A stretch of 64,000 bases of DNA from Agromyces larvae (lineage in GTDB: Bacteria > Actinomycetota > Actinomycetes > Actinomycetales > Microbacteriaceae). Of this stretch, positions 18,707 through 40,511 are shown piece by piece. The stretch lies in NCBI RefSeq assembly GCF_022811705.1, contig NZ_CP094528.1, positions 3,162,001 to 3,226,000 on the forward strand, given 5' to 3'. Under the pieces are notes generated by a model, which did no database searches, had not been told where the DNA came from, and saw only the letters and a program-made list of their open reading frames with translations. Positions within the stretch are counted from its first letter, which is position 1; the number at the start of each line of letters is the position of its first letter. A program made the position numbers and the translations under genes.

Positions 18707-19618
18707 GTGATCCGACTTGCGAATGCGCCTGTCAGCTATGGCGTCTTCGGTCTGTCCCGGCCCGACCTCGTGCCGCTGCCCGATGGCGAGCAGCTCGCCG
18801 CATGGGTCGCCGAGGCCGGCTACGAGGGCATCGATCTCGGGCCGATCGGCCTGCTGGGCGACGCCGACTCGATCGCGGCGAACCTCGGCGCCCACCGGCT
18901 CGGGCTGGCCGGGGGATGGGTCGACTTGCCGTTCGGTGCGGGCGACGATGCCGCGTTCGAGGCATCCCTCGAGGGGCTCGACGCGGCGCTCGCGATCTTC
19001 CGCGCCGCGGCCGAAGCCGATCCCGAGCGCGCGCCGAAGCCCACGATCGCCGACTCGGGTTCGGCCGAGCGCAACGCGCGGCCGGGCGGCGGCGCGGATC
19101 TCGAGCTGTCGGATGCCGCGTGGCGGCGTTTCGCCGATCGAGTTGCCGTCGTGGCGGCGCGCGTGCGCGCCGCGGGCCTGGAGCCCACGTTCCACCACCA
19201 CGCGTGCACCTATGTCGAGACCCCGCACGAGATCGAGCGCTTCCTCGCCGACACCGACGTCGACCTGACCTTCGACACCGGGCACCTGCTCATCGGCGGC
19301 GGCGACCCGGTGGCCGACTTCGGCCGGTGGCGGTCGCGCATCAACCATGTGCACCTGAAGGACGCCGACCGGTCGGTGCTCGAGCGTGCGGCCGGCTCCG
19401 CCGACCCGCTGCACGAGGTGTGGGAGCAGCGCATGTTCGTGCGCCTCGGCGACGGCGATCTCGCGGTCGACCGCATCGTCGACGAGATCGTCGCGTCGGG
19501 GTTCGACGGATGGCTCGTGGTCGAGCAGGACGTCATCCTGCAGGATGCGGCCGACGTCGACCGCGCCCGCCAGGACCAGATCGACAACCGCGAGCGCCTG
19601 CGTCGGTGGTTCGCATGA
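18707..19618 (+). CDS. Sugar phosphate isomerase/epimerase family TIM barrel, inosose dehydratase (IolE)-like
   Basis: 303 residues, xylose-isomerase-like AP-endonuclease-2 fold. NAPVSYGVF (residues 6-14) is the first strand; GYEGIDLGPIG, TFHHHACTYVETPHE and LTFDTGHLLIGGGDP carry the metal ligands (His, Glu, Asp), and NHVHLKD and VVEQDVIL complete the barrel. This set resembles IolE-type inosose dehydratases, which remove water from 2-keto-myo-inositol. IolH/IolI-like isomerases are the alternative. It is the first gene of an eight-gene operon and the iolC/B/D genes are 12 kb away. The GTG start follows GAGAGGA (18695-18701). Confidence 0.72.
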   Translation: MIRLANAPVSYGVFGLSRPDLVPLPDGEQLAAWVAEAGYEGIDLGPIGLLGDADSIAANLGAHRLGLAGGWVDLPFGAGDDAAFEASLEGLDAALAIFRAAAEADPERAPKPTIADSGSAERNARPGGGADLELSDAAWRRFADRVAVVAARVRAAGLEPTFHHHACTYVETPHEIERFLADTDVDLTFDTGHLLIGGGDPVADFGRWRSRINHVHLKDADRSVLERAAGSADPLHEVWEQRMFVRLGDGDLAVDRIVDEIVASGFDGWLVVEQDVILQDAADVDRARQDQIDNRERLRRWFA

Positions 19619-20832
19619 GCGGAACGTCGCAGACCGGGGCACCGCGGGTCGCGATCGCCGTCATCGGGCTCGGCGGCATCAGCCAGAGCGTGCACCTGCC
19701 GCTCATCCGCCGCAACCGCGACCTGGTCGAGCTCACGGCCGTGGTCGACCTCTCGGCGGGTCGCGCGGCCGAGTTCGCCCGCGAAGCGGGCGAGGGAGTG
19801 CAGGGGTTCTCGTCGCTCGACGCGCTCCTCGCGGCCCGGGACGCCGGCGACGTGCGGGTCGACGGCGCGGTGCTGGCGACCTCGGGCTCGCACGCCGGCG
19901 ATGTGGGCCGGCTGCTCGATGCGGGCATCCGCGTGCTCGCCGAGAAGCCGCTCGCCTTCTCGCTCGGCGAGATCGAGGAGCTCGAGGCATCCGCCGCCCG
20001 TCGCGGAGCCGACCTCGCCGCCGAGCTGCGCGTCGGCTACATGAAGGAGTACGACCCGGCGACCCGCGCGGCCGCCGACCTGCTCGCCGGCGTCGAGCTG
20101 CGCGCGGTCACCGTGGAGGTGCTGCACCCGGCCGACGGCGCGCAGCTGGCGTTCGCGCGCCTGGCCCCGCCGCCGACGGACATCCCCGGCGACGTGGCAT
20201 CCGAGCTCGCCGACCGCACCGCCGCCATCGTCGAGCGCGCGATCGGCGCAGCACCCGACCCCCTGCCCAAGCTGTACACGAACGTCGTGCTGGGTTCGGT
20301 CATCCACGACATCGCGCTGCTGCGCCGCCTCGTCGGCGGCATCGGCACGGTCGAGCGCGCGCAGCAGTGGGGCGGATTCCCCGGCTCGCTGTCGCTCGGC
20401 GGCCGCCTCGCCGCGCACGCCGACGTGCCGTGGTCGATCGACTGGCACTTCATCCCCGACTATCCCGAGTACCGCGAGACCGTCACCTTCCACCACGCGA
20501 CCGGCACGGTGTCGCTGCGCTTCGCCGTGCCGTACGTGCTCAACGCGCCCACCGTGCTCACCGTCGCCGAGCGGGCCGAACCGCTCGGCAGCCGCCGGTC
20601 CGAGACCGAGTGGATGCAGGAGGAGGCGTTCGAGCACGAGCTGCGCTCGTTCGCGGCGCTCGTCGCGGGGCATCCGGGGGCTCCGGGCAGTGCGTCGTCA
20701 GCGGCCGAGGCTGCCGACGATCTGCGGGTCGGCCAGCGGATGCTCCGCCGCCTCGCCGACTCGATGGGCGCGCCGATCGCGGCGGAGAGCGAAGCCGCGA
20801 CCGACCGCGAGAGCCCGCCGACCCACCCCTGA
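19615..20832 (+). CDS. Gfo/Idh/MocA family oxidoreductase, possible inositol dehydrogenase
   Basis: 405 residues. The Rossmann motif is AVIGLGGISQSVHLP (residues 15-29), followed by the AEKPLAF motif (about 118-124) that places the catalytic Lys of this family. A C-terminal alpha/beta domain follows. Family members oxidise a sugar or inositol hydroxyl with NAD(P). The ATGA overlap with the IolE-like gene suggests consecutive steps: oxidation of inositol (or an inositol-containing product) to the keto form, then dehydration. The substrate is inferred from context. It is somewhat longer than typical IolG, with an extended, acidic C-terminus. Confidence 0.8.
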   Translation: MSGTSQTGAPRVAIAVIGLGGISQSVHLPLIRRNRDLVELTAVVDLSAGRAAEFAREAGEGVQGFSSLDALLAARDAGDVRVDGAVLATSGSHAGDVGRLLDAGIRVLAEKPLAFSLGEIEELEASAARRGADLAAELRVGYMKEYDPATRAAADLLAGVELRAVTVEVLHPADGAQLAFARLAPPPTDIPGDVASELADRTAAIVERAIGAAPDPLPKLYTNVVLGSVIHDIALLRRLVGGIGTVERAQQWGGFPGSLSLGGRLAAHADVPWSIDWHFIPDYPEYRETVTFHHATGTVSLRFAVPYVLNAPTVLTVAERAEPLGSRRSETEWMQEEAFEHELRSFAALVAGHPGAPGSASSAAEAADDLRVGQRMLRRLADSMGAPIAAESEAATDRESPPTHP

Positions 20833-20906
20833 CACCACGACCGCACCACACCACCAGCACCACGTCGGCCCCATCCGGGCCGGTCGCACCGAGAGAGAGG
20901 TCGAAG

Positions 20907-22307
20907 ATGATCCACCAGAGGCGAACCACCGCCGCGCTGGCGCTCACGGCGGCAGGAGCACTCCTGCTCGCGGGCTGCTCGAGTGCCGAGCCCGAAACCA
21001 CCGACGACGGGCCGGTCACGCTCACCATCACCACCAACGCCATCACCGGCGGCAAGAACGCGGCCGAGGCCGACTGGATCGCCGACTGGGTGATCCCCGA
21101 GTTCGAGGCCGCGATGGAGGCGGACGGCAAGGACGTCACCGTTCAGTTCGAGCCGCAGGGCGTCGACGACGAGAACTACAAGACGAAGATCGCCCTCGAC
21201 CTGCAGTCGGGCGAGGGTGCCGACATCATCGGCATGGACGGCATCTGGGTCGGCGAGTTCGCCGAGGCCGGGTACATCAAGCCCCTCGCCGAGGTCGGCG
21301 GCGACGCCGTCGACGGCTGGGACGGCTGGGACCAGATCCCCGACGCCGTGCAGTCGGCGCTGTCGTTCGACGGTGAGCGGTACGGCGTGCCGCAGGGCGC
21401 CGACGGCCGGGTGCTCTACTACAACAAGGCGCTGTTCGAGCAGGCGGGCCTGCCCGCCGACTGGCAGCCCGAGAGCTGGGCCGACGTGCTCGACGCGGCG
21501 CGCGAACTGAAGAAGCTCGACGGGGTCACCCCGATCCAGCTGAACGCGGGCACCGCGATGGGCGAGGCCACCACGATGCAGGGGCTGCTGCCGATGCTCG
21601 TGGGCACCGGCGAGCAGGTCTACGAGGACGGCAAGTGGGTCGGCGACACCGACGGCCTGCGCGACGTGCTCGACCTGTACAAGACGATCTACATCGACGA
21701 GGGCCTCGGCGACGCCGTGCTCCAGCAGGAGGCCGCGGGTCGCGACACCTCGTTCCAGCTCTTCGCGGCGAACCAGATCGGCATCCTGCTCGAGGGCGAC
21801 TACTTCTGGCGGAGCGTCATCAACCCCGCCGAGGGCGTGGGCACCGCGCCGATGGCCGACCGCGACACCGTCGTCGGTTACACGAAGATCCCCGCGAAGG
21901 AGCCCGGCTCGGGCATCAAGGACCAGGACTTCGTGTCGATGTCGGGCGGCACGGGCCGTGTCCTCAACCCGAACAGCGACCACCCCGAACTGGCCTGGGA
22001 GCTGCTCGCGTTCATGAACTCGGCCGACGCATTCGAGGCCCGCAACGCGGGCACGCTCTCGATCACGCCCCGAACCGATGTCAACGACAAGATGCTCGCC
22101 GACGACCCGATGCTCACGTTCGTGAGCGAAGAGGTGCTGCCGATCACCGCGTACCGTCCGCCGCTCGCCGCGTACCCGCAGGTTTCGACGGCGCTGCAGC
22201 AGGCGTCGCTCGACGTGGTGTCGGGCACCAGTGTGGACGATGCCCTGGCCGACTACGTCGACTCGCTCAGCGACATCGTCGGGGATGACGCGATCTCGGG
22301 CAACTGA
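20907..22307 (+). CDS. Carbohydrate ABC transporter substrate-binding lipoprotein
   Basis: 466 residues. A lipoprotein signal peptide ends in LLLAGC (Cys24 lipidated); a family 1 solute-binding fold follows, with AFxxA-like helices, YYNKALFEQAGLP and the hinge-proximal GDYFWRSVINP. It sits outside the membrane and delivers the ligand to the two permeases. The spacing of 74 bases from the previous gene and the absence of a visible terminator keep it in the same transcript. The ribosome-binding site is GAGAGAGG (20891-20898). CUT1-type systems import oligosaccharides and glycosides, so a mannosyl-polyol ligand is possible but not shown. Confidence 0.9.
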   Translation: MIHQRRTTAALALTAAGALLLAGCSSAEPETTDDGPVTLTITTNAITGGKNAAEADWIADWVIPEFEAAMEADGKDVTVQFEPQGVDDENYKTKIALDLQSGEGADIIGMDGIWVGEFAEAGYIKPLAEVGGDAVDGWDGWDQIPDAVQSALSFDGERYGVPQGADGRVLYYNKALFEQAGLPADWQPESWADVLDAARELKKLDGVTPIQLNAGTAMGEATTMQGLLPMLVGTGEQVYEDGKWVGDTDGLRDVLDLYKTIYIDEGLGDAVLQQEAAGRDTSFQLFAANQIGILLEGDYFWRSVINPAEGVGTAPMADRDTVVGYTKIPAKEPGSGIKDQDFVSMSGGTGRVLNPNSDHPELAWELLAFMNSADAFEARNAGTLSITPRTDVNDKMLADDPMLTFVSEEVLPITAYRPPLAAYPQVSTALQQASLDVVSGTSVDDALADYVDSLSDIVGDDAISGN

Positions 22308-23254
22308 TGACGACGAGCACCACCATGCCGCCGGCGGGGAGCGCGACTGCTCCCCGCCGGCGGCGGGCCGACGACGTCGCCGGTCTCGGCACCCTGCGTG
22401 CCGGGCTGTTCGTCGCGCCCGGGTTGATCCTGATCGGCGTGTTCCTGCTCTTCCCGGCCCTGTGGACCATCTGGCTGGGCATGACCGACTACCGGTTGAC
22501 GGGCCTGCAGGCCGCGTCGCCCGAGTTCGTCGGCCTCGACAACTACATCGACGCGCTCACCGACGGCGACTTCTGGAACTCGCTCTGGCTCACCCTGATC
22601 TTCGTGATCGGGTCGGGCATCATCGGCCAGACGCTCATCGGCTTCGGACTGGCCTGGTCGATCCGCGACCTGCGCGGCTGGGCGAAGGGGCTCATCGAGG
22701 GCCTCGTGCTCGCAGCCTGGGTGATCCCGGCGTCGGTGGCGTCGTTCCTGTGGCTCGCGCTGCTCGACCGGCGGTCGGGCACGGTCAACGAGCTGTTCGG
22801 CATCCAGGGCACCGCGTGGCTGATCGACCACCCGATGGAGGCGATCATCCTCTTCAACATCTGGGTCGGCACCGCGTTCTCGATGCAGTTGTTCTCGTCG
22901 GCGCTGAGCGCCGTGCCGCCCACGCAGATCGAGAGCGCCAAGATGGTCGGCGCGTCGCAGTGGCAGCAGCTGCGCGACGTGATCGTGCCGAACATCAAGG
23001 GGCACATCCTCACGAACACGCTGCTCATCACGCTGTGGACGTTCAACACGTTCACGCCGTACCTCGTCACCGCGGGCGGACCGAACGGCAAGACCGAGAT
23101 CCTGTCGGTGTACATCTACAAGACGGCCATCCCGGGCGGGCAGCTCGGCATGGGCGCGGCGATCTCGCTCATCATGCTGCTGATCAACCTGGTGATCGCG
23201 CTCGGCTACGTGCGCGTCGCGCAGGGCCGCCGGCAGGGAAGGAGGAAGCGATGA
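22307..23254 (+). CDS. Carbohydrate ABC transporter permease (MalF/UgpA type)
   Basis: 315 residues. A polar cytoplasmic N-terminus is followed by about six membrane helices, starting with LFVAPGLILIGVFLLFPAL. The EAA loop ESAKMVGASQWQQLRDVIVP, about 80 residues from the C-terminus, docks onto the ATPase. The start overlaps the upstream stop by one base (TGATG), so it is translationally coupled to the binding protein. Together with the next gene it forms the membrane channel. Confidence 0.9.
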   Translation: MTTSTTMPPAGSATAPRRRRADDVAGLGTLRAGLFVAPGLILIGVFLLFPALWTIWLGMTDYRLTGLQAASPEFVGLDNYIDALTDGDFWNSLWLTLIFVIGSGIIGQTLIGFGLAWSIRDLRGWAKGLIEGLVLAAWVIPASVASFLWLALLDRRSGTVNELFGIQGTAWLIDHPMEAIILFNIWVGTAFSMQLFSSALSAVPPTQIESAKMVGASQWQQLRDVIVPNIKGHILTNTLLITLWTFNTFTPYLVTAGGPNGKTEILSVYIYKTAIPGGQLGMGAAISLIMLLINLVIALGYVRVAQGRRQGRRKR

Positions 23255-24108
23255 GCGCGACCCCGGTCCGCACGGTCGCCCGGAACCGCAGCGTGCGGTA
23301 CTTCGTCTCCCGGGTGCTCTTCACCGTCGTCATCACGTTCGTCGGGCTGGCGTTCGCGCTGCCGATGGTGTGGCTGGTGCTGGCGCCGTTCGACGCGACT
23401 CCGACGCTCTCGCTCGAGTGGCCCGACTGGACGCTCGACAACTTCGCCCGGCTCGCCGAGAACCCGTACGCGCTGCGCTCGATCGGCAACTCGCTGCTGC
23501 TGGGCGTCGGCACGATGCTGATCGTCATCGTGCTGGGTGCGCTCGCGGCGTACGCGATGAGCCGTATCCGCATCCCGGGCCGCGACGGCATCCTCTACGG
23601 GCTGCTGCTGCTCTCGTCGATCGTGACGGGCACCGCGGCGATGGTGCCGACGTTCCAGATCATCACGCAGCTCGGGTTGATCAACAACTACGTCGGCGTG
23701 CTGCTGGTGCTGGCCGGCGGCATCCTGCCGACCGTGATCTTCATCCTGAAGGACTTCATGGATTCGATCCCGAAGTCGTACGAGGAGTCGGCGCGGCTCT
23801 ACGGTGCGGGGCCGTTCCGCATTCTGCGCGACGTGGTGGCGCCGATCGCCCGGCCGGGGCTCGCGTTCATCGCGATCTGGACGATCGTGCAGGTGTGGAG
23901 CAACTTCCTGGTGCCGTTCATCCTGCTGCGCAGCCCCGACCTGCAGCCGGCGGCGGTGCTGATGTACACCTTCTACACCGAGAGCGGCCAGGCCGACCTG
24001 CGCCTCATCTCGACGTTCGCCCTGCTGTTCTCGCTGCCGGTGCTCGTGATCTACTTCGTCGTCAACCGACGTTTCGGTTTCCGCTTCCATGGAGGTATCA
24101 AGTCCTGA
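23251..24108 (+). CDS. Carbohydrate ABC transporter permease (MalG/UgpE type)
   Basis: 285 residues, six predicted membrane helices, first VLFTVVITFVGLAFALPMVW. The EAA motif is EESARLYGAGPFRILRDVV (about 185-205), and the C-terminus ends HGGIKS as usual in MalG-like subunits. It has an ATGA overlap with the first permease, and GGAGG at 23240-23244 supports the start. Confidence 0.9.
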   Translation: MSATPVRTVARNRSVRYFVSRVLFTVVITFVGLAFALPMVWLVLAPFDATPTLSLEWPDWTLDNFARLAENPYALRSIGNSLLLGVGTMLIVIVLGALAAYAMSRIRIPGRDGILYGLLLLSSIVTGTAAMVPTFQIITQLGLINNYVGVLLVLAGGILPTVIFILKDFMDSIPKSYEESARLYGAGPFRILRDVVAPIARPGLAFIAIWTIVQVWSNFLVPFILLRSPDLQPAAVLMYTFYTESGQADLRLISTFALLFSLPVLVIYFVVNRRFGFRFHGGIKS

Positions 24109-25184
24109 TGGCCGGCATCACCGCCACCCAACTCGTCAAGGAGTACCCCGGCGGGGTTCGCGGCGTCGACGAGGTCGACGTCGAGATCCGCGACGGCGAG
24201 TTCTTCGCCCTGCTCGGCCCGTCGGGCTGCGGCAAGACCACCCTGCTGCGCTCGATCGCTGGGCTCGAGGCGATCACGGGGGGCACCCTCGTGATCGGCG
24301 ACCGGGATGTCACGAACGCCGAGCCCGGCGTGCGCGGCGTCGCGATGGTCTTCCAGGACTACGCGCTCTTCCCCCACATGGATGTCGCGGACAACATCGC
24401 GTACCCGCTGCGGATCAAGCGCGTGAAGCGCGACGAACGCCGGGCGAAGGCCACCGAGGTCGCCGACGGGCTGAGCCTGCAGGGGCTCACCGAGCGCCGG
24501 CCCGGTCAGCTCTCGGGCGGGCAGCAGCAGCGCGTCGCGCTCGCGCGCGCGGTCGCCACCCGGCCCGACGTGCTGCTGCTCGACGAGCCGCTGTCGAACC
24601 TCGACGCCCGGCTGCGACTCGAGGCGCGCACCTTCCTGAAGGAGCTGCAGCGCGACCTCGGCGTGACGACGGTGTTCGTCACACACGACCAGGCCGAGGC
24701 GCTCGCGCTCGCCGACCGCATCGCGGTCATGAAGCAGGGCAAGCTGCAGCAGATCGGCACGCCGCGCGAGGTGTTCCAGCGGCCGAACAACACGTTCGTG
24801 GCCGGGTTCATCGGCTCGAACCCGATGAACCTGGTGCCGGCGCGTGTCGTGGGCGGCGCGGTCGATGTGAACGGCACGCGCGTGCCGTTGCCGCCCGACG
24901 CCGAGGGTGCGGTGACCGAAGGCCAGCGGGTGATCTGGGGCGTGCGCCCCGAGTACCTGCGCTGGTCGGCGACCGAGGAGCCGGGCGCGATCGCCGCCGA
25001 GGTGAGCGTGGTCGAGAACCTGGGTGCGAGCCTGCTCGTGGCCGCCCACGCGGGCGAGCATCGCATCCAGGTGGTCGTGCCCGAGGACACCGAACTCGAG
25101 CCCGGGTCGGCCGGATGGCTCGTGCCGCAGACGGCGAAGACGCTGCTCTTCGACGCCGAGTCGACGGAGCGCATCGGCCGATGA
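24108..25184 (+). CDS. Carbohydrate ABC transporter ATP-binding protein (MsmK/UgpC type)
   Basis: 358 residues. Walker A GPSGCGKT (37-44), Q-loop FQDYALF (82-88), signature LSGGQQQR (135-142), Walker B LLLLDEP (to 161) and switch His in VFVTHD. The C-terminal ~110 residues form a TOBE/OB-fold regulatory part. Many actinobacterial CUT1 operons lack an ATPase and share a global MsmK; here a dedicated one is encoded, with TGATG coupling to the permease. It powers import of the operon's substrate. Confidence 0.92.
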   Translation: MAGITATQLVKEYPGGVRGVDEVDVEIRDGEFFALLGPSGCGKTTLLRSIAGLEAITGGTLVIGDRDVTNAEPGVRGVAMVFQDYALFPHMDVADNIAYPLRIKRVKRDERRAKATEVADGLSLQGLTERRPGQLSGGQQQRVALARAVATRPDVLLLDEPLSNLDARLRLEARTFLKELQRDLGVTTVFVTHDQAEALALADRIAVMKQGKLQQIGTPREVFQRPNNTFVAGFIGSNPMNLVPARVVGGAVDVNGTRVPLPPDAEGAVTEGQRVIWGVRPEYLRWSATEEPGAIAAEVSVVENLGASLLVAAHAGEHRIQVVVPEDTELEPGSAGWLVPQTAKTLLFDAESTERIGR

Positions 25185-26450: not shown

Positions 26451-29327
26451 ATGACCCAGCCGACCAACCCGACCGCCGACTCCACGCGAAAGACCGAGGA
26501 ACCGACGATGCCCGCACCCGACGAACTCGTGATCGTGCCGCACACCCACTGGGATCGCGAGTGGTACGAGCCGCACGACGTGTTCCGCCTGCGGCTCGTC
26601 CACATGCTCGACCGGCTGTTCACCACGCTCGAGCGGAATCCCGACTATCGGTTCACGCTCGACGGACAGGCCGCCGCGGTCGACGACTACCTCGAGATCC
26701 GTCCCGAGCAGCGTGACCGGGTCGCGGCGGCGGTCGAACGCGGGCAGCTCGCGATCGGGCCGTTCCTGATCCTGCTCGACGAGTTCCTCTGCGACGGCGA
26801 GACCATCGTGCGCAACCTCGAGCTCGGTCTGAAGTCGAGCCGTCGCATCGGCCCCGAGATGCGGGTCGGGTACCTGCCCGACATGTTCGGGCACGCCGCG
26901 CAGATGCCGCAGCTGCTGCGCGGGTTCGGCATCCGGCACGCGGCACTCTGGCGCGGCGTGCCCGCGCGCGTCGACCGGCACGCGTTCGCCTGGCGCTCGC
27001 CCGACGGGTCGGTCGTGCGCACCGAGTATCTGCTCGACGGGTACGGCAACGCGCTCGACCTGTTCGCGCTGCCCGGTCAGCTCGAACAGCTCGTCGCCGA
27101 GTATGGGCGGTCGATCGCGAGTTGGTACGGCAGCGACCCCATTCTCGGCATGCTCGGCACCGACCACAGCGCCCCTCCCGCCGATCTGATCGAGGTCGTC
27201 GGCGCCGCGACGGATGCCGGCATCTCGACTCGGCTGTCGGTCGACACGATCGAGGGGTACGTGCGCCGGGTCGCGCCCGAGTGGGATGCCGGCGACGACG
27301 CCGCGCTCGACGGATGGCCCGCCGTCGACGGCGAGCTGCGCTCGCACGCACGCGGCAACCTGCTGCCCGGCGTCTTCTCGATCCGCACGAACCTGAAGCG
27401 TGCGATGGCCGACGCCGAGCGCCGGCTCTCGGTCGCTGAACGGCTCGACGCCGCATTCGGCGCCGACGATCACCGCGCGTTCTTCGACACCGCGTGGTAC
27501 CGCCTGGTGGAGTCCACCGCCCACGACTCGGTGACCGGCTGCGGGGTCGACACCACGGCCGACGAGGTCGAGAACCGGCTCGCGACCGCGGCGCATGTCG
27601 CGCGCGGCGTCGTGCTGCGCACCATGGAGCGGCTCGCGGCCGCGGTGCCGCCCGAGCGGTTCGTCGTCGCCAACCCCGCCGGGTTCGCGCGTCGCGCCCA
27701 CGTCGAGGTGCGGCTCGACGACCCCGCGCGACGCGAGCTCGGCTCGGGCGTGCAGCTGCTCGACGGGTTCCCCGAGGTGCTGGGCGACGAGGTGATGCGG
27801 ACCTCCGACCTGCGCCGGCTGCTCGCCCGCATCCACGGGCGCGAGCTGTTCGGTCAGCTCATCAACGACTGGCGGTTCACCGACGAGGGCCTGCGGTTCG
27901 ACGTCGCCGAGGCGCCGGTCGGCGACTTCGACCTCGCCGCGTTCGTCGCCGAACTCGAACGACGCATCGCGAGCGACCCCGACGACGCCCGCACCTGGCG
28001 GGTCGAGATCATCGCGGCGCCGCGGCGGCGGGCGATCGTCGGGGTCGATGTCGGCGGGCTCGCCGCGGTCGAGGTCGACCCCGCGACGGCGAGCTCGCTC
28101 GGGCATGCGGGTGGCGACGTCGTGCGGGTCGGCGCCGACGGGCGGACGCTCGCGAACGCGTCGCTCTCGGTCGTCGTCGGCGAGACCGGCTCGGTGCGCA
28201 TCGAGACGGTGGGCGGGGCGGGCGGCGAGCGCACCGTGCTCGACGACGTGCTGCGACTCGTCGACGAGGGCGACCGCGGCGACTCGTACAACTACGGCCC
28301 GATGGCGGCCGGCACCGTCGTCGACACCCCCGACGCGGTCGAGATCACGGTGCTCGAGTCGGGGCCGATTCGCGGCCGGGTACTCGTGCGGCGGCGCTAC
28401 ACCCTGCCCGCCTCGATCGATGCGACCGACCCCGACCGCCGCGCTGCGGCGCCGGTGCCGCTCGACGTCGACACCGTGCTCGAGCTGCGCGAGGGCGAGC
28501 CGATGCTGCGGGTCGCGGTCGAGTTCACGAACCTCGCCGCCGACCACCGCCTGCGGCTGCTCGTACCGACCGGTGCGAGCGACCTGCCGACCTCGGCGGC
28601 GGCCGGCCAGTACGCGGTGACCGAGCGCGGGCGATCCGGTGAGGGCGGCTGGGGCGAGTTCCCCCTGCCGACGTTCCCGGCCGCCCGGTTCGCCGCGGCC
28701 GGGGCGGCGACCCTCCTCGTCACGAAGCACTCCGAGTACGAGCTCGTCGCCGACGAGGCATCCGGCCAGGACGCCCTGGCCCTCACCCTCGTGCGCTCGG
28801 TGGGCCTCATGAGCGTGAACATCCATCCCCTTCGCGACGAGCCCGCCGGAGCGCAGTTCCCGGTGCCCGGCGCGCAGTACCTCGGCGCGCGCGTGCGCAC
28901 CGAACTCGCGGTGCTGCCGTCGCCCGACGGCTGGGCTGCGGCCGACGCACCGCGCTGGGCCGAGCTGCTGCGCAGCGAGCCCGAGGTCGCGCGCGGTACG
29001 CGCGGCGGCCCGGCGGTGGTCGGCGGCGTCGCGGGCGCGGGCGGTGCGGCCGACGCGGCAGGGCTTCCGGATGTCTCGGTGCTCGAGGTCGGCGGATCGG
29101 TCGTGCTCGAGTCGTATCGGTGGGTCGAGGGCGGTGTGCTCGAGGCCCGCTTCGTGAACTACGGCGCCTCGCCCGCGCGGCTCGCCGCCGTGGCATCCGG
29201 AATCTGGGATCGCACCGACCTGACCGGGCGCGTCATCGAGCGTGATGTGGATCTCACCGGGTTCATGATGGGTCCGGCGCGGATCGAGACGTTCCGGAGC
29301 CGCGGGAGCGCCCCAGATCGGGGGTGA
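26451..29327 (+). CDS. Alpha-mannosidase, glycoside hydrolase family 38
   Basis: 958 residues. VPHTHWDREWY (about 30-39) is the hallmark GH38 start with zinc-binding His, and YLPDMFGHAAQMPQLL (about 141-156) contains the likely nucleophile Asp144. HDSVTGCGVDTT carries another zinc-site His near residue 360. Beta-sandwich domains fill the C-terminal half. GH38 enzymes release terminal alpha-mannose with retention. No signal peptide, so it is cytoplasmic and acts after import. I report the ATG at 26451 (GGAG eight bases upstream); the in-frame ATG at 26508 has an even better GAGGA and starts nearer the conserved domain. It is the last gene of the operon. Confidence 0.9.
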   Translation: MTQPTNPTADSTRKTEEPTMPAPDELVIVPHTHWDREWYEPHDVFRLRLVHMLDRLFTTLERNPDYRFTLDGQAAAVDDYLEIRPEQRDRVAAAVERGQLAIGPFLILLDEFLCDGETIVRNLELGLKSSRRIGPEMRVGYLPDMFGHAAQMPQLLRGFGIRHAALWRGVPARVDRHAFAWRSPDGSVVRTEYLLDGYGNALDLFALPGQLEQLVAEYGRSIASWYGSDPILGMLGTDHSAPPADLIEVVGAATDAGISTRLSVDTIEGYVRRVAPEWDAGDDAALDGWPAVDGELRSHARGNLLPGVFSIRTNLKRAMADAERRLSVAERLDAAFGADDHRAFFDTAWYRLVESTAHDSVTGCGVDTTADEVENRLATAAHVARGVVLRTMERLAAAVPPERFVVANPAGFARRAHVEVRLDDPARRELGSGVQLLDGFPEVLGDEVMRTSDLRRLLARIHGRELFGQLINDWRFTDEGLRFDVAEAPVGDFDLAAFVAELERRIASDPDDARTWRVEIIAAPRRRAIVGVDVGGLAAVEVDPATASSLGHAGGDVVRVGADGRTLANASLSVVVGETGSVRIETVGGAGGERTVLDDVLRLVDEGDRGDSYNYGPMAAGTVVDTPDAVEITVLESGPIRGRVLVRRRYTLPASIDATDPDRRAAAPVPLDVDTVLELREGEPMLRVAVEFTNLAADHRLRLLVPTGASDLPTSAAAGQYAVTERGRSGEGGWGEFPLPTFPAARFAAAGAATLLVTKHSEYELVADEASGQDALALTLVRSVGLMSVNIHPLRDEPAGAQFPVPGAQYLGARVRTELAVLPSPDGWAAADAPRWAELLRSEPEVARGTRGGPAVVGGVAGAGGAADAAGLPDVSVLEVGGSVVLESYRWVEGGVLEARFVNYGASPARLAAVASGIWDRTDLTGRVIERDVDLTGFMMGPARIETFRSRGSAPDRG

Positions 29328-29378
29328 GCGCGGTGCCGCGGTGCACCGCGGCACGTCCACCCGTCTACTGTCACCACA

Positions 29379-29399: not shown

Positions 29400-30164
29400 A
29401 TGGCACAGCTCCCCGAGCAGCGGCTCCCCGTCGAGCTGTTCCTCGACCTCGACCGCTCGGGCCCGGTGCCGCTGTACTACCAGGTGGCGCAGCGCCTCGA
29501 GCAGGCGATCCGCGACGAGACCCTGCCGGCCGGTGCGCGCCTCGAGAACGAGGTCGCGCTCGCGAGCCGGCTGGGGCTGTCGCGGCCGACGATCCGCCGG
29601 GCCATCCAAGACCTCGTCGACCAGGGTCTGCTCGTGCGGCGCCGCGGCATCGGCACCCAGGTCGTGCACGGACGCGTCACCCGCAACGTCGAGCTGACCA
29701 GCCTCTACGAAGACCTCGAACGCGCCGGGCAGGAGCCGACGACCACCGTGCTCGACGTCGCGTCCGCGACCGCCGACGAGCGGGTCGCCGAGGCCCTGGG
29801 CGTGCCGGTCGGCAGCCCGACGCTGCACATCCGCCGCCTGCGGTTCGCCGACGGCGTGCCGCTCGCGATCCTCGACAACGTGCTGCCCGCCGCCTACGCC
29901 GACCTCGAGCGCGACGACCTCGAACGGCACGGGCTGTACCAACTGCTGCGCGCCCGAGGCGTCACGATGCGCGTCGCCAAACAGCGCATCGGCGCACGCG
30001 CCGCGACCGCGCAGGAGGCCGACCTGCTCGACCTGCGCCGCGGCGCGGCGATCCTCACGATGTCGCGCACCGCGTTCGACAACGCCGGCGTGGCCGTCGA
30101 GTACGGCCAGCACTGCTACCGCCCCGACCGGTACGCGTTCGAGGTGACGCTGGTGGAGCGCTAG
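29400..30164 (+). CDS. iolR: GntR-family regulator, HutC subfamily, probable inositol regulator
   Basis: 254 residues. The winged helix-turn-helix spans about 20-90 (ENEVALASRLGLSRPTIRRA is the HTH, GLLVRRRGIGTQVV the wing), followed by a UTRA ligand-binding domain (about 100-250) with LHIRRLRFADGVPLAI and FDNAGVAVEYGQHCYRPDRY. The wing and the opening PVPLYYQVAQRLEQAI resemble C. glutamicum IolR as I remember it. It sits between the sugar operon and the inositol operon, and TGTC-type sites occur at both promoters and its own. Repression relieved by an inositol intermediate is the expected mode. The symbol is by analogy, not by search. Confidence 0.75.
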   Translation: MAQLPEQRLPVELFLDLDRSGPVPLYYQVAQRLEQAIRDETLPAGARLENEVALASRLGLSRPTIRRAIQDLVDQGLLVRRRGIGTQVVHGRVTRNVELTSLYEDLERAGQEPTTTVLDVASATADERVAEALGVPVGSPTLHIRRLRFADGVPLAILDNVLPAAYADLERDDLERHGLYQLLRARGVTMRVAKQRIGARAATAQEADLLDLRRGAAILTMSRTAFDNAGVAVEYGQHCYRPDRYAFEVTLVER

Positions 30165-30293: not shown

Positions 30294-30432
30294 GTGCACG
30301 ACCTGCTCTGGGAGCGTCCGGCCGAAGGTCGCCACGTCTCGGCGGGCCAGCGGCCCGACCGAGTTCCTCGGGGTCGACTATCCGGGCGACGAGGAGTACA
30401 TCCACACCCTCGACGAGTACCTCGCCCGCTAG
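30294..30432 (+). pseudogene. Small ORF with an apparent frameshift
   Basis: From the GTG at 30294 the frame reads MHDLLWERPAEGRHVSAGQRP; dropping one base near 30358 continues as TEFLGVDYPGDEEYIHTLDE then YLAR and stop. Both halves look like real protein and neither alone makes sense, so a ~45-residue gene seems to carry a one-base insertion. Its 5' end touches the P1 palindrome. No family recognised. Confidence 0.3.
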
Positions 30433-30474
30433 CGAGCAGAGGGGCGCGCGCGGCGCGCGGCGCGACCACCGGGG

Positions 30475-32388
30475 TCACCCCAGCAGCGGCCGTTGCCGAC
30501 CCCGCTCCTGGTCGTACCGCTCGCGCGCCGCGCGCGCGTTGTCGAGCTCTGCGACCTCGGCCGGCGGCACCTCCCACCAGCCCTCGCCGTCGGGCGCGTC
30601 GGGCAGCGGGTCGACCTCGACGTGGATGACGGTCGAGGTCACCGAGCGCTTCGCGGCTCGCACGGCCTCGGCGAGGCGGGCGGCCACATCGGGGCCGGGG
30701 GCGACATCGATCACGTCGACGCCGTAGCTGCGGGCGTTCGCCGCGAGGTCGATGGCGGGCGGCTCGGCCGCGCGCAGATCGGGCGCGGTCGGGTCGACCT
30801 GTCCGTACCAGGTGCCGAACCGGTCGGTGCCGACGCTCTCCGACAGCCGGCCGATCGACGCGTAGCCGTGGTTCTGCACGATGACGACGATGAGTTTGAT
30901 GCCCTCGGCGACCGCGGTCACGAGCTCGGAGTGCAGCATGAGGTACGAGCCGTCGCCGACGAGCACGATCACGTCGCGGTCGTCTCCGGCGGCGAGCAGC
31001 CCGCGCTTCGCTCCGAGCCCGCCGGCGATCTCGTACCCCATCGTCGAGAAGGCGTACTCGACGTGGTAGCCGAGCGGGTCGCGCACCCGCCACAGCTTGT
31101 GCAGATCGCCGGGCAGGGAGCCGGCGGCCTGCACGAGCACATCACGGGCATCGGATGCCTCGTGCACGGCGCCGATCACCTCGGCCTGCGTCGGCAGTTC
31201 GCGCCCGGTCGGGGCGAGGGCGGCGTCGACGGTTGCGTTCCACGTGGAACGCTCGCGGTCGATGTGCTCGGCGTACGCAGAGGCGACCCGGTACCGCGAC
31301 AGACCCTCGGCGAACGCGTCCAGCGCTTCGCGGGCGTCGGCGAGCACCGGCAGGCGGCTGCCGTGCTTGAACGCGTCGACCGCGGCGACGTTGACGTTCA
31401 CGAATCGCACCTCGGGATGCCGGAACGCCGTGCGGCTCGCGGTCGTGAAGTCGCTCCATCGGGTTCCGATGCCGATCACGACGTCGGCGTCGGCCGCGAG
31501 CCGGTTCGCTGCGGTCGACCCGGTGGCGCCGATGCCGCCGAGGTACTGCGGGTGATCCCACGGCAGGGCGCCGCCGCCGGCCTGGGTGGTCGCGACCGGG
31601 ATGCCGGTCTGCTCGGCGAATCGGGCGAGCACCGCTTCGGCGCCCGAGTAGAGCACGCCGCCGCCGGCGACGATGAGCGGATGCTCCGCCGCAGCGATCG
31701 CAGCCAGCGCACGGTCGAGCTGCCCACGCTGGGGGAGCGGCCGTGACAGGTGCCAGTCGCGTTCGGCGAGGAACTCGACCGGCACGTCGAGCGCCTCGGC
31801 CTGCACGTCCTCAGGCAGCGCGATGGTGACCGCGCCGGTGTCGGCGGGATCGGTCAGCACCCGCATCGCGCCGAGCGCGATCGAGAAGAGCTGCTCGGGC
31901 CGGTCGACGCGGTCGAAGAACCGCGAGAGCGGACGGAACGCGTCGGTCACCTGGATGCCCGGATCGTGCGGATGCTCCAGCCCCTGCAGCACCGGGTCGG
32001 CGCTGCGCGAGGCGAACACGTCACTGGGCAGCAGCAGCGCCGGCAGTCGGTTCGACGTCGCGAGGGCGGCCCCGGTCAGCATGTTCGCCGAGCCCGGCCC
32101 CACCGACGCCGTGGTCGCGAGCGTCGCCAGCCGCCGATGCATCCGCGCGAACCCGACCGCCTGGTGCACCAGCGCCTGCTCGTTGCGTCCCTGCCGGAAC
32201 GGCAGCAGGCCCGGCTCCAGCAGGTGCGCCTGCCGCAGCGCCTGACCGAGCCCCGCGACGTTGCCGTGGCCGAAGATGCCGAGCACGCCCGGCACGGTGC
32301 GTTCGCGGTGGTCGCCGTCGACCGTGTACTGGTTGGCGAGGAACGCCACCAGCGCCTGCGCGACGGTCATGCGGCGGGTGCGGGTCAT
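30475..32388 (-). CDS. iolD: 3D-(3,5/4)-trihydroxycyclohexane-1,2-dione hydrolase
   Basis: 637 residues, thiamine-diphosphate enzyme of the acetolactate synthase fold. FRQGRNEQALVHQAVGFA near the N-terminus holds the cofactor-activating Glu; the TPP/Mg motif is GDGSY (from 478) through N506-H507. The size equals that of other IolD proteins. It hydrolyses the ring of trihydroxycyclohexanedione to 5-deoxy-glucuronate, the ring-opening step of inositol catabolism. The start overlaps the iolB stop (ATGA). Its order after iolB in the operon and the complete set of cofactor residues make this a confident call. Confidence 0.93.
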   Translation of the reverse strand: MTRTRRMTVAQALVAFLANQYTVDGDHRERTVPGVLGIFGHGNVAGLGQALRQAHLLEPGLLPFRQGRNEQALVHQAVGFARMHRRLATLATTASVGPGSANMLTGAALATSNRLPALLLPSDVFASRSADPVLQGLEHPHDPGIQVTDAFRPLSRFFDRVDRPEQLFSIALGAMRVLTDPADTGAVTIALPEDVQAEALDVPVEFLAERDWHLSRPLPQRGQLDRALAAIAAAEHPLIVAGGGVLYSGAEAVLARFAEQTGIPVATTQAGGGALPWDHPQYLGGIGATGSTAANRLAADADVVIGIGTRWSDFTTASRTAFRHPEVRFVNVNVAAVDAFKHGSRLPVLADAREALDAFAEGLSRYRVASAYAEHIDRERSTWNATVDAALAPTGRELPTQAEVIGAVHEASDARDVLVQAAGSLPGDLHKLWRVRDPLGYHVEYAFSTMGYEIAGGLGAKRGLLAAGDDRDVIVLVGDGSYLMLHSELVTAVAEGIKLIVVIVQNHGYASIGRLSESVGTDRFGTWYGQVDPTAPDLRAAEPPAIDLAANARSYGVDVIDVAPGPDVAARLAEAVRAAKRSVTSTVIHVEVDPLPDAPDGEGWWEVPPAEVAELDNARAARERYDQERGRQRPLLG

Positions 32389-33665
32389 CCGTTGTTCCCT
32401 TCGTCCTCCGAGCTCGCTGAGCTGGTCGAAGCGGGCCCTTCGACAGGCTCAGGGACCTTGTCGCTCGCTGAGCTTGTCGAAGCGGGCCGTTCCCCTTCGA
32501 CAGGCTCAGGGACCTTGTCGCTCGCTGAGCTGGTCGAAGCGGGCGCTTCCCCTTCGACAGGCTCAGGGACCTTGTTGCTCGCTGAGCTTGTCGAAGCGAG
32601 CCGTTCCCCTTCGACAGGCTCAGGGGGCCCTTCCCCTTCGACGGGCTCAGGGACCTTGTCGCTCGCTGAGCTTGTCGAAGCGAGCCGTTCCCCTTCGACA
32701 GGCTCAGCGAGCCCTTCCCCTTCGACAGGCTCAGGGGGCCCTTCGACGGCCACCCCGTACGGCAGCCGCGGGTCGATGCCCTGCGCGGGCCAGTCGTCGC
32801 GGATCCACGCCTGCGTCGGGTCGTCGCTGATCAACCAGGCACGCTCGGCGCCCGGGCCGGCCATCACGTTCAGGTAGTACAGGTCGGCGCCGGGCGCCGC
32901 GGCGGCCGGCCCGTGGTACCCGAACGGCACGAGCGCGACGTCGCCGGTGCGCACGAGCGCCCGCGTCTCGATCTCGCCGGCCGGCGACGACGAGGTCGCG
33001 AAGAAGCCGGCCGGGTCGGCATCGCTCCGAGGCATCCGGCCGCGCTCGACCGCCGTCGCGAACCAGTAGATCTCTTCGAGCCGGGTCTCGCGCCCGGGCA
33101 GCTCCTCGTCGTGCTTGTGCGCCGGATGGCTCGACCAGCACCCGGCCGGAGTGATCACCTCGCACGCGATGATGCGGTCGGCGGCCAGCACGCCGGGCGT
33201 GCCGAAGTTGTGCACCTGACGGCTGGATGCTCCGCCGCCGCGCAGTTCGACCGGCACGTCGGCGGCGGCGATGCGACGCAGCGGATGCCGCGTGGTCGCG
33301 CGCGCCTCGGCGACCGCGACGGTGCCCGTGCCGGTGAGGGTCGCCGCCGTGCCGATCGGCAGGTAGCAGGTGTCGGTCGGGCCGTCGAAGACGGAGGCGC
33401 GGCCGACGAGCTCGATCGTGCCGCCGTCGCCGTCGCCGTCGCCGCCTCCCTCGCCGCCCTCGACCGCGACCGTGCACGACCCGGCCAGCGGGATCACGAT
33501 CCGTTCCACCGGCCGGGCGTCGAGCGTGAGCCGTTGCCCGCCGTCCAGCCGGCCGACGCGCAGGCCCGTCCACCGCCACCCGTCGATGCGGTCGTCCACC
33601 ACCACATCCCAGCCGTCGCGTGCGAGCGCGCCGCGCGGGTGGAACCACTCGTTCAGCCGGGCCAT
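32385..33665 (-). CDS. iolB: 5-deoxy-glucuronate isomerase with a repeat-encoded C-terminal tail
   Basis: 426 residues, of which the first ~305 form the bicupin IolB fold: NEWFHPRG start, FGTPGVLAADRII, and the metal region SSHPAHKHDEELP followed by EEIYWF. It converts 5-deoxy-glucuronate to 2-deoxy-5-keto-gluconate. Normal IolB ends shortly after WIRDDWPAQGIDPR (here ~296-305). The remaining ~120 residues are an alternation of seven EPVEG and five ASTSSAS units translated from an array of dispersed repeats at 32410-32760. The tail is probably disordered, and the ATGA junction with iolD is preserved. A poly-Gly/Asp loop (GGEGGGDGDGDGG) at about 69-81 is also unusual. Confidence 0.92.
   Translation of the reverse strand: MARLNEWFHPRGALARDGWDVVVDDRIDGWRWTGLRVGRLDGGQRLTLDARPVERIVIPLAGSCTVAVEGGEGGGDGDGDGGTIELVGRASVFDGPTDTCYLPIGTAATLTGTGTVAVAEARATTRHPLRRIAAADVPVELRGGGASSRQVHNFGTPGVLAADRIIACEVITPAGCWSSHPAHKHDEELPGRETRLEEIYWFATAVERGRMPRSDADPAGFFATSSSPAGEIETRALVRTGDVALVPFGYHGPAAAAPGADLYYLNVMAGPGAERAWLISDDPTQAWIRDDWPAQGIDPRLPYGVAVEGPPEPVEGEGLAEPVEGERLASTSSASDKVPEPVEGEGPPEPVEGERLASTSSASNKVPEPVEGEAPASTSSASDKVPEPVEGERPASTSSASDKVPEPVEGPASTSSASSEDEGNNG
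32410..32757. repeat. Array of 12 alternating TTCGACAGGCTCAG / CTGAGCTTGTCGAA repeats in the iolB 3' end
   Basis: Seven cores of the type CCTTCGACAGGCTCAGGG and five of the type CGCTGAGCTTGTCGAAGCG, mostly alternating with a period near 56-60 bases, plus a partial core at about 32741. Neighbouring opposite cores can pair into hairpins. All are in frame with iolB. Confidence 0.9.
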
Positions 33666-34585
33666 CAGCGCGCCTCCGCGATCGCCGGCCGCACCATCCT
33701 GGCGGCCTGGTCGACCGCCGCGGCCACGTCGCCGCCGGGCGGCGCGAGCAGGTTGCGGCCGACCACAAGCCCGCGCACCCCGGGCAGCGAGAGCGCGTGC
33801 TCCCAGCTGGAGTACGCGGCATCCGGGTCGTCGGCGCGGTCGCCGCCGAGCAGCAGGGTGGGCAGGGTGGTCGCGGCCATCACCCGTTCCATGTCGGGAA
33901 CGACGGGCAGCTTCATCCAGCTGTACGCCGACGAGGTGCCGAGCGCCGCGGCGATGCCGACGGCGGTGATGACGGCGTCGGCGGTGAGGTCGTTCTCGAC
34001 GACTCCGTTCCGGGTGCGGCTCATGAAGGGCTCGAGCATGATCGGCAGCTCCGCCGCGGCCGCCGCGCTGACCGCTGCGGCCGTCGCCTCCAGGGTGACC
34101 ACGGTCGCCGGGTCGCGCAGGTCGATGCGCAGCAGGCACTTCGCGACGTCGAGGCGGTCGCGCACGATCGCGGGCACGTCGTACGCCGTGTACCGGTCGT
34201 CGAGTTCGAAGACGGCGCCGCGCAGCCCGCCGCGGTTCATCGACCCGGCGACCACCTTGCCGTCGAGCACGCCGAGCAGCGCGAGATCGTCGATCACGTC
34301 GGGGGTGCCGAGCACGCCGTCGACGCCGGGGCGGCTGAGTGCGAGCGCCAGCCGGTCGAGCATGCGGATGCGGTCGGCCATCGCCATCGGGTCGTCGCCG
34401 ATGCCGAGCGCCCCGCGCGCCGGGTGATCGGCGGCGATGAGGAAGAGCCGCCCGTCGTCGCCGAGCAGCGGGCGCCGGGTGCGCGCGGTGTGCGCGGCGG
34501 CGATCGCGGCGGGCTCGGAGGCCCGGATGCGGCGCACCTCGGCGTAGCGGTCGGGATGGAGGAACCAGTCGTCAGTGCTCGGCAT
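33665..34585 (-). CDS. Cgl0159-family (beta/alpha)8-fold aldolase-like protein
   Basis: 306 residues. FLIAADHPARGALGIG (about 48-63) is the first conserved strand; LLRIDLRDP, LPIMLEPFMSRTRNG, AYSWMKLPVVPDMERVM (with the likely Schiff-base Lys) and LLLGGDRADDP follow the class I aldolase layout. Proteins named after C. glutamicum Cgl0159 are found inside iol operons, often annotated as deoxyribose-phosphate aldolase-like. Here it lies between iolC and iolB where iolJ would be expected, so cleavage of 2-deoxy-5-keto-gluconate-6-phosphate is a reasonable inference. It shares one base with iolB (TGATG) and overlaps iolC by 14 bases. Confidence 0.8.
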   Translation of the reverse strand: MPSTDDWFLHPDRYAEVRRIRASEPAAIAAAHTARTRRPLLGDDGRLFLIAADHPARGALGIGDDPMAMADRIRMLDRLALALSRPGVDGVLGTPDVIDDLALLGVLDGKVVAGSMNRGGLRGAVFELDDRYTAYDVPAIVRDRLDVAKCLLRIDLRDPATVVTLEATAAAVSAAAAAELPIMLEPFMSRTRNGVVENDLTADAVITAVGIAAALGTSSAYSWMKLPVVPDMERVMAATTLPTLLLGGDRADDPDAAYSSWEHALSLPGVRGLVVGRNLLAPPGGDVAAAVDQAARMVRPAIAEAR

Positions 34586-35606
34586 CGGTGCCCCCGGTCG
34601 TGGTCGCAGTGGTCGCGGCGGCGGCGTCGACCGCGGCGGCGGCGGCGTTGCGGTCGCCGCGTTCGGCGATGAAGCCGTCGACCTCGGCCGTCGACGGCAT
34701 GGCCGTCGAGCATTCCAGGCGGGTCGCGACGATCGCGCCCGCCGCGTTCGCGAACCGGATGATGCGCTCGAGCGGCCACCCCGCGAGGAGCCCGTGGCAG
34801 AGCGCCCCGCCGAAGCCGTCGCCCGCGCCGAGCCCGTTCACCACGTCGACCGGCATCGCGGGGGAGTGCACGGTCTCGTCGCGGGTCGCGGCCAGCACGC
34901 CGTCGGGGCCGAGCTTCACGACCGCGAGCTCGATGCCGCGGTCGAGGAGCGCTCGCGCGGCGCGCTCGGGGTCGCGTTCGCCGGTCGCGACCTCGCACTC
35001 CTCGAGGTTGCCGACGGTGACGGTCACGCGGTCGAGGGCGCGGTGGACCTCGCGCCGCGCGGCGTCGATCGACGACCAGAACATCGGCCGGTAGTCGAGG
35101 TCGAGCACGGTGAGCGGGCGACGTTCGCGGATCTCCCATGCCCGGTGGTGGGCGGCGCGACTGGGTTCCTCGCTGAGCCCGGTCACCGTCGACCAGTGGA
35201 TGCGCGCGGTGCGCACGGCTTCGACCGGCACCTCGTCGGGCGTGATCTCGAGGTCGGGCGCCTTCGGGCGCCGGTAGAAGGTGAGCGGGAAGCGGTCGGG
35301 CGGGAACACCTCGCAGAACGTGATCGGCGTCAGTTGGTCATCGGATGTCCCGACGAACGCCGCGCTCACGCCCAGCCGTTCGAGCTCGCGGCGGAGGAAC
35401 CGGCCGAACGCATCGGCGCCGGTGCGGGTGAAGATCGCCGATCGGCGACCGTGACGGGCGGCGGCGACCGCGACGTTCGCGGCGCTGCCGCCGAGCGAGC
35501 GCGTGAACGTCTCCACCTCGTCGAGCGTGTGCTCGAGCTGGAGCGGATAGAGGTCGATGCCGATCCGGCCCATCGTGAGCACGTCCAGCGCTGCTGAGGT
35601 CGTCAT
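34572..35606 (-). CDS. iolC: 5-dehydro-2-deoxygluconokinase, PfkB family
   Basis: 344 residues. The N-terminal DVLTMGRIGIDLYPLQ and SLGGSAANVAVAAARHG are PfkB signature 1; NGLGAGDGFGGAL (257-269) is signature 2 with catalytic Asp263. FYRRPKAPDLEI and HWSTVTGLSEEPSR are typical of IolC. It phosphorylates 2-deoxy-5-keto-gluconate. It is the first gene of the operon, with about 45 bases between the predicted operator and the ATG. The C-terminal ~20 residues are Ala/Thr-rich low complexity. Confidence 0.93.
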   Translation of the reverse strand: MTTSAALDVLTMGRIGIDLYPLQLEHTLDEVETFTRSLGGSAANVAVAAARHGRRSAIFTRTGADAFGRFLRRELERLGVSAAFVGTSDDQLTPITFCEVFPPDRFPLTFYRRPKAPDLEITPDEVPVEAVRTARIHWSTVTGLSEEPSRAAHHRAWEIRERRPLTVLDLDYRPMFWSSIDAARREVHRALDRVTVTVGNLEECEVATGERDPERAARALLDRGIELAVVKLGPDGVLAATRDETVHSPAMPVDVVNGLGAGDGFGGALCHGLLAGWPLERIIRFANAAGAIVATRLECSTAMPSTAEVDGFIAERGDRNAAAAAVDAAAATTATTTGGTDAEH

Positions 35607-40510: not shown

Positions 40511-40511
40511 C

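Follow-up and report, generated by a model that had tools for sequence, protein, structure and literature searches.

A candidate inositol-glycoside utilisation locus of Agromyces larvae, in which an ABC importer, a PHP metallohydrolase and a GH38 alpha-mannosidase accompany inositol catabolic genes

What purpose would a sugar importer, a PHP metallohydrolase and an alpha-mannosidase of glycoside hydrolase family 38 (GH38) serve among genes for inositol breakdown? This combination is found at positions 18707-35606 of a 64,000-nucleotide stretch (the window) of the Agromyces larvae genome (contig NZ_CP094528.1, positions 3,162,001 to 3,226,000 of the forward strand), which is complete, with 4.0 Mb in a single contig; its close named relatives are from Agromyces. 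Judged from its genes and their distribution, the composite system is real and conserved, and it likely handles an inositol compound. On balance we favor a dedicated inositol-glycoside utilisation system that would import a mannosylated (glycero)phospho-inositol and feed it into inositol breakdown. The original prediction, made from the sequence alone, had read all parts as a single system, and this reading is well supported by the co-occurrence of the parts across genera and families, by a shared candidate operator and by the similarity of the regulator to iol-linked GntR proteins.

The locus consists of two facing operons. That on the plus strand encodes, in this order, IolE, a Gfo/Idh/MocA dehydrogenase (Gfo), a solute-binding protein (SBP), two permeases, an ATPase, the PHP protein, GH38 and a GntR/UTRA regulator, in genes that mostly overlap or nearly touch, with gaps of about 75 bases before the SBP and before the regulator. 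The minus-strand operon carries iolC, a Cgl0159-type aldolase gene, iolB and iolD (35606 down to 30475), and all frames of the 18707-35606 locus are open. Gene families were assigned with Pfam and NCBIfam models, and scores are given as bits/cut-off. The genes named in the original prediction lie at, or very near, the places where it had put them, and the family matches agree. The IolR-like regulator that it had placed between the operons is there and is a GntR/UTRA protein, but it belongs to the plus strand, downstream of GH38, with a candidate operator of its own. The features are as follows:

18640..18649, plus strand: candidate operator TGTCAGAACC before iolE, an imperfect palindrome; the same ten bases occur upstream of IolE in 6/6 Agromyces sequences compared
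18707..19618, plus strand: IolE-type inosose dehydratase (AP_endonuc_2; IolE model TIGR04379 131/290 bits, below cut-off); its tree position is among IolEs of ordinary iol clusters
19615..20832, plus strand: divergent Gfo/Idh/MocA dehydrogenase (GFO_IDH_MocA), candidate replacement of IolG
20907..22307, plus strand: solute-binding lipoprotein of a CUT1 ABC importer (SBP_bac_1; lipoprotein-like N-terminus by eye)
22307..23254, plus strand: ABC permease 1 (family match)
23251..24108, plus strand: ABC permease 2 (family match)
24108..25184, plus strand: dedicated MalK/UgpC-type ATPase (family match)
25181..26437, plus strand: CehA/McbA-type PHP metallohydrolase (NCBIfam NF038032, 131 bits, cut-off 80)
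26451..29327, plus strand: GH38 alpha-mannosidase, start at 26451 or 26508 (GH38 N-terminal and middle Pfam models above gathering scores)
29369..29378, no strand assigned: candidate operator TGTCACCACA before the regulator (TGTN4ACA match)
29400..30164, plus strand: GntR/UTRA regulator, IolR-like (GntR and UTRA domains)
30475..32388, minus strand: iolD (TIGR04377, 798/715 bits)
32385..33665, minus strand: iolB with a repeat-encoded C-terminal tail (TIGR04378, 205.5/205 bits)
33665..34585, minus strand: Cgl0159-type aldolase (PF22649, 398/27 bits)
34572..35606, minus strand: iolC, 5-dehydro-2-deoxygluconokinase (TIGR04382, 368/300 bits)
35659..35668, no strand assigned: candidate operator TGTTAGGACA before iolC (TGTN4ACA match)

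Conservation of the gene set was followed with a GH38 profile of four aligned sequences, two of them partial, searched against genome contigs; the best 80 of 134 GH38 relatives were kept as loci, and gene presence was called by set bit thresholds. SBP and PHP were found in 33 of the 80 loci, 26 of which also had IolE and Gfo, a pair present in 28/80. IolC or IolD lay in the flanks of 17 of the 35 loci having SBP and PHP or IolE and Gfo, and these iol-flanked loci come from Agromyces, Microbacterium, Actinotalea, an Actinomycetales metagenome-assembled genome and Jiangella; in addition, a Nonomuraea locus has the iol operon. At least five gene orders were seen among the loci. With E for IolE, G for Gfo, S for SBP, P for permeases, A for ATPase, H for PHP and M for GH38, the order is E-G-S-P-P-A-H-M in Agromyces and Microbacterium, E-G-S-P-P-A-M-H in Actinomyces, S-P-P-A-H-M-E-G in Actinotalea, E-G-M facing H-A-P-P-S in Jiangella and Arthrobacter, and S-P-P-A-H-E-G-M in Paenarthrobacter and Nonomuraea, the latter with a divergent iolC-aldolase-iolB-iolD operon. 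Co-occurrence in relatives was one of the checks that the original prediction had named, and it came out in its favour; a set that is met again in other genera and families, and in different gene orders, reflects more than chance.

Whole genomes were searched for 25 of the 35 loci, the ten omitted (Agromyces, Microbacterium) all having IolC and IolD in the locus. IolD exceeded its cut-off in 22/25 of these locus genomes versus 121/296 genomes of the class (Fisher test, p ~4e-6, which ignores kinship and uses a class sample that includes some of the same genomes).

The other 45 of the 80 GH38 loci have no IolE, Gfo, PHP or SBP at threshold; a few of them end at contig ends (e.g. L158), and IolC or IolD is nearby in 7 of the 45. 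GH38 alone was rejected as a marker of the system, with these 45 loci lacking the partners and the five inspected showing another importer. This second setting of GH38, with the other ABC importer, is seen in L171, L176, L182, L193 and L217, at least three of which also have a GH2-like enzyme (by eye); in Planotetraspora (L176, L178) a GH38 of the second setting is followed by the importer-PHP-GH38 set.

Within the family, sampled in 249 genomes, an IolE match at E<=1e-20 was found in 57 genomes and a Gfo match at E<=1e-40 in 10. Sixteen of 25 loci with an IolE 47-56% identical (L090-L114) have IolB, IolC, IolD or the aldolase nearby, and an IolG-like protein follows IolE in L096, L097 and L099 (by eye). 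The version seen in the window, with Gfo in place of IolG and with the importer, PHP and GH38 added, is kept in two genomes (G079 and G240), the locus proteins of the first being 88-100% identical; two genomes of the same genus (G142, G194) have no IolD, IolE, Gfo or GH38 at the thresholds used.

The regulator, encoded 72 bases after GH38, is 61-79% identical to GntR proteins beside other iol genes or IolEs in the family, a range that omits one locus with an unrelated GntR (29%). The motif TGTN4ACA was found within 150 bp upstream of GntR in 32/36 cases, counting three sequences (L121-L123) that are second copies of others, of iolC in 27/38 and of iolE in 18/57, with about one expected in each; by contrast, all 308 stretches preceding SBP, Gfo, PHP, GH38, IolD, OpB, aldolase, permease 1 and ATPase were free of it, with 3.6 expected. 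Our locus carries copies at 29369 and 35659 and the near match TGTCAGAACC at 18640, and two perfect TGTCATGACA copies lie between the divergent operons of Nonomuraea. Across the window, the exact operator pattern was found twice versus 0.26 expected, a count matched by 5/100 shuffles, and a scan allowing one mismatch gave an uninformative 3 versus 8.2 expected; motif counts and window scan are descriptive, because the motif was chosen by eye from the same promoters. The position of the motif upstream of iolC, of the regulator and, less often, of iolE makes co-regulation likely, so that, as far as a shared motif shows, the two operons are probably co-regulated, as had been proposed.

Among solved structures, the SBP comes closest to a 'family 1' SBP (5ci5) and to proteins that bind sugar, maltose or acarbose, which says little about the ligand. 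The SBP is 57-87% identical in 35 relatives, with one outlier (L220, 30%), and such strong conservation fits one shared ligand. The best NCBIfam match of the ATPase is UgpC, below cut-off (399/432 bits), and the SBP scores 23/411 bits on the UgpB model, so that the importer is not assigned to UgpBAEC. By eye, the SBP has a lipobox-like LLLAGC and no signal peptide was seen on PHP or GH38; hydrolysis would therefore most likely be cytosolic, after import.

Both enzymes keep their active-site residues. In GH38, six residues of the HxHxD, PD and AHD motifs, which we take to be the catalytic Asp and the metal His/Asp, are kept in 38/38 loci; its nearest solved chains are the GH38 enzymes 3lvt and 2wyh, and on the mannosylglycerate hydrolase model (PRK09819) it stays below cut-off (304/1138 bits). 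The presence of GH38 is the reason to expect that the compound carries alpha-mannose. In PHP, H151, H153, D158, H183, E208, H215, H249, D302 and H304, presumably the PHP ligand set, are invariant in 31/31 aligned sequences, and an AlphaFold2 model with a mean predicted local distance difference test score (pLDDT) of 95 has 3e38 and 2anu, PHP 'predicted phosphoesterases', as best folds. That the compound also carries a phosphodiester is a guess from this fold and from comparison with an iol locus in genome G227, described below.

Relatives of PHP are also found elsewhere. Two of them (L047, L048; 54-56% identical) share their operon with genes for a YdjC-type protein and an MFS transporter, as judged by eye and, for L047, from Pfam matches to YdjC and MFS_2. 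PHP was rejected as a marker of the whole system, since G227 and G194 have theirs in an MFS-YdjC-PHP operon. Those in G031 and G126 have no other gene in common with the locus.

The inositol-oxidising step raises the question of IolG. No position in the A. larvae genome exceeds the cut-off of the IolG model (TIGR04380) or of the IolE model (TIGR04379); the best IolG score is 124.9/355 bits, with about 40 for Gfo of the locus, and there is no IolG match at E<=1e-60. We rejected the idea that IolE is odd on account of its low TIGR04379 score, since the IolE of an ordinary cluster in the same family (L096), which adjoins an IolG above cut-off (376/355 bits), also scores only 139 bits, so that the model is narrow. 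The nearest solved chains of our IolE are IolEs.

We searched for IolG in 30 genomes, 25 chosen ones plus A. larvae (G000), G079, G240, G114 and G227, and found a match at E<=1e-60 in 16, above cut-off in 6. Among the 14 without such a match, 11 have IolD, IolB or a visible iol cluster, and Gfo is present in 11/11 of these (G000, G079, G240, G249, G250, G252, G254, G264, G267, G227, G114). Conversely, IolG is matched at E<=1e-60 in every one of the six IolD-bearing genomes that have no Gfo in the locus (G261, G265, G266, G269, G271, G273). In an IolE tree of 66 rows, the 23 family rows from Gfo-less loci form one clade among 33 Gfo-linked rows, and the Gfo label needs 3 changes versus a mean of 22 in shuffles. 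As one clade holds both Gfo-linked and Gfo-less rows, the product of Gfo is probably the normal IolE substrate.

A Gfo relative (46%) is found in an iol operon of G227 (L092, 4504-18128), followed by a GntR gene, an ABC importer and a fusion of a glycerophosphodiester phosphodiesterase (GDPD) with an inositol monophosphatase. IolD of this genome matches in two pieces, and it has no IolG at E<=1e-60; the locus is a plausible candidate for glycerophosphoinositol utilisation giving free inositol. Two further arrangements were seen: a 5.5 kb contig of G114 (L094, 1-5503) on which the genes for IolE, Gfo and GH38 are lined up like an operon and a gene for a GH2 enzyme is divergent, and, in A. larvae itself, a region (C1:1749000-1771000; L051, L052) with several IolG/IolE-model matches (Gfo and AP_endonuc_2-type proteins) and ABC permeases.

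From these elements the following pathway can be drawn. The CUT1 importer would bring in a mannosylated inositol compound of small size; the likeliest is a (glycero)phospho-inositol mannoside, for instance the head group of a deacylated actinobacterial phosphatidylinositol mannoside or the head group of a fungal mannosyl-inositol sphingolipid. In the cytosol, GH38 would remove alpha-mannose and PHP the phosphate- or ester-linked part. Gfo would then oxidise the freed inositol to inosose in place of IolG, IolE would dehydrate the inosose, and IolD, IolB, IolC and the Cgl0159-type aldolase would complete the known pathway. The GntR regulator may repress both operons via the TGTN4ACA operator.

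Relatives in another phylum point to the core of the system. A search of plasmids with the SBP gave 22 records, 21 of them alphaproteobacterial, with the matches listed 44-45% identical. Nine alphaproteobacterial loci were inspected (L271, L272, L274-L280), which are plasmid-borne importer-PHP operons in Rhizobiaceae and Martelella; in 9/9 a DUF5054 gene is divergent from the SBP, permease, ATPase and PHP genes, and DUF5054 gives a weak GH38 N-terminal match, below gathering. The Martelella locus has an added GH38, and the three records that come with annotation list a LacI regulator. In two Sinorhizobium (L275, L279), IolE-like genes follow PHP; both loci also have a Gfo-like gene, by a match in L275 and by eye in L279, and the model scores in L275 are 130 bits for IolE and 103 for IolG. 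The importer and PHP are therefore a core, and IolE, Gfo and the iol genes frequent, non-obligatory partners.

Several observations weigh against the import of a mannosylated phospho-inositol for inositol breakdown. Among the 33 importer-PHP-GH38 loci, 7 have no IolE and Gfo in their flanks, an IolE-like gene is present in only 2/9 of the alphaproteobacterial loci, and only 6/249 family genomes have a GH38 relative at E<=1e-60. Two Actinomyces genomes (G256, G257) have the importer, PHP, GH38, IolE and Gfo with no IolD or IolB above cut-off, and a third (G270) has the importer, PHP and GH38, no IolE and Gfo in the locus, and again no IolD or IolB above cut-off. Four residues before the active-site His, Gfo has Gly227 (27/27) where two IolGs have an Asp with a catalytic role; its best sequence match in the PDB is DgpA, and inosose could also be made by other, weak Gfo paralogues of the genome, of which there are 12 matches with at most 125 bits. 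The TGTN4ACA core alone is unspecific, as the window has 6 copies in all, only 2 of them within the locus. L159 comes from Actinotalea subterranea HO-Ch2, a strain with the full set but without IolG at E<=1e-60; in API tests reported in PMC8878594 it neither formed acid from inositol nor oxidised it, and it was negative for alpha-mannosidase (API ZYM). These results could be those of an idle system or of one with another substrate; the inositol result fits an importer for a conjugate and not for free inositol, and the negatives could be explained if the system was not induced or if the strain has no transporter for free inositol.

An unlikely alternative, though the likeliest of three, is that Gfo oxidises an inositol ring (or sugar) that is still substituted and that IolE expels the substituent by beta-elimination, so that cleavage is oxidative and not purely hydrolytic. 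DgpA has a glycoside-oxidising role. The likeness of Gfo to it, the lack of the IolG Asp and an insert relative to the two IolGs agree with such chemistry, as does the Foldseek list of Gfo, which includes KijD10, NAD-dependent glycoside hydrolases and DgpA; in this list ketoreductases, 1,5-anhydrofructose reductase and inositol dehydrogenases stand with glycoside-oxidising enzymes. Moreover, 10 of the 16 IolD-bearing genomes with Gfo and IolE in the locus (among them Jiangella, A. israelii and Sanguibacter) also have IolG at E<=1e-60, so that Gfo and IolE would be spare there if limited to free inositol; the two Actinomyces that retain IolE and Gfo without IolD and IolB, and the full-set strain of A. 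subterranea reported not to use inositol, point the same way. On the other hand, the conserved motifs of IolE are kept in 16 aligned sequences and its clade holds Gfo-linked and Gfo-less rows together, and the Gfo relative of G227 lies near a GDPD-inositol monophosphatase fusion whose expected product is free inositol.

Distinctly unlikely is that an importer for alpha-mannosides in general, with its GH38 and PHP, is just the neighbor of an inositol operon and shares only a regulator with it. The loci without IolE and Gfo, the Actinomyces with the set and without iolD and iolB, the GH38 of Martelella and the constant company of DUF5054 with the alphaproteobacterial importer and PHP would all be expected of such neighbors; IolE and Gfo nevertheless remain with GH38, PHP and the importer across the rearranged gene orders, IolE-like genes follow PHP in the two Sinorhizobium, several families have iol genes flanking the set, and both operons carry the operator. 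A non-phosphorylated glycosyl-cyclitol or plant glycosyl-inositol sphingolipid head group as substrate, with PHP cleaving a carboxylic or other ester and not a phosphodiester, is very unlikely, for although the CehA/McbA family takes its name from ester and carbamate hydrolases and two PHP relatives are encoded in one operon together with MFS and YdjC genes, the closest folds among solved structures belong to predicted phosphoesterases and the comparable iol locus of G227 has a phosphodiesterase-phosphatase fusion.

Compared with known systems, the utilisation system that we favor most resembles the myo-inositol catabolic cluster (iolGEDBC, PMC9430895), with IolD, IolB and IolC above cut-offs, a Cgl0159-type aldolase, IolE and a GntR regulator; it differs in its divergent Gfo, with no IolG above cut-off in the genome, and in the added CUT1 importer, PHP and GH38. 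In that study, clusters are defined by at least three of iolB, iolC, iolD and iolE together, which includes our locus, and are reported in 41% of 789 Microbacteriaceae species; the string 'mannosid' does not occur in its main text. GH38 has the N-terminal and middle domains and the catalytic residues of enzymes of the MngB mannosylglycerate hydrolase/SpGH38 type, but its model score is low (304/1138 bits, as above) and its genomic setting is inositol, not glycerate. PHP matches the CehA/McbA domain model with all its ligands invariant and differs from that family in sitting with a sugar importer and a mannosidase. Like UgpBAEC with GDPD, the locus combines a CUT1 importer, with UgpC as best ATPase match, and an enzyme of the cytosol that might cleave a phosphodiester; unlike it, the locus has an ATPase below the UgpC cut-off, its SBP barely matches UgpB, PHP stands in the place of GDPD, and a mannosidase and iol genes are attached. 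Oxidative glycoside-cleaving pairs consist of a DgpA-type dehydrogenase with a TIM-barrel partner, and here too Gfo adjoins an AP_endonuc_2 TIM-barrel protein; in the locus, however, the latter is IolE, GH38 is present and the iol pathway is attached.

Two features of the surroundings deserve mention. Palindromic repeats of the TTCGACAAGCTCAGCGAGC type occupy 32412-32744 and 39104-39260 of the window, accounting at the first place for the C-terminal tail of iolB and falling at the second within the 3' end of efeU; the EfeU protein extends 80 residues beyond its family match, and the repeats seem to be read into both IolB and EfeU proteins. The efeU gene belongs to an EfeU-EfeO-Dyp peroxidase iron uptake operon at 38280-41807, near the iol locus.

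The original prediction had known of no characterised system of this composition, and our literature search, mostly outside subscription journals, found no account of such a locus among the titles and abstracts listed; the accessible part of a study on plant GH38 (PMC12248283) makes no link to inositol lipids. The inositol-catabolic cluster is known; its conserved front end of importer, PHP and GH38 is new, and the locus is conserved and apparently uncharacterised.

Soils commonly contain inositol glycolipids from actinobacteria, fungi and plants. In the titles and abstracts searched, no bacterial route for uptake and breakdown of their head groups was found described, and the locus offers a compact gene set in culturable genera with a single testable substrate prediction. 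If this prediction is true, it would give roles to PHP and GH38 subfamilies whose substrates were not found in the same literature, and would explain how genomes with iolD and no recognisable iolG may oxidise inositol. More tentatively, the system might represent a widely conserved actinobacterial salvage of mannosylated phospho-inositol head groups, in which IolE and Gfo may act on still-substituted inositol and so couple glycoside or ester removal to breakdown by oxidation and elimination.

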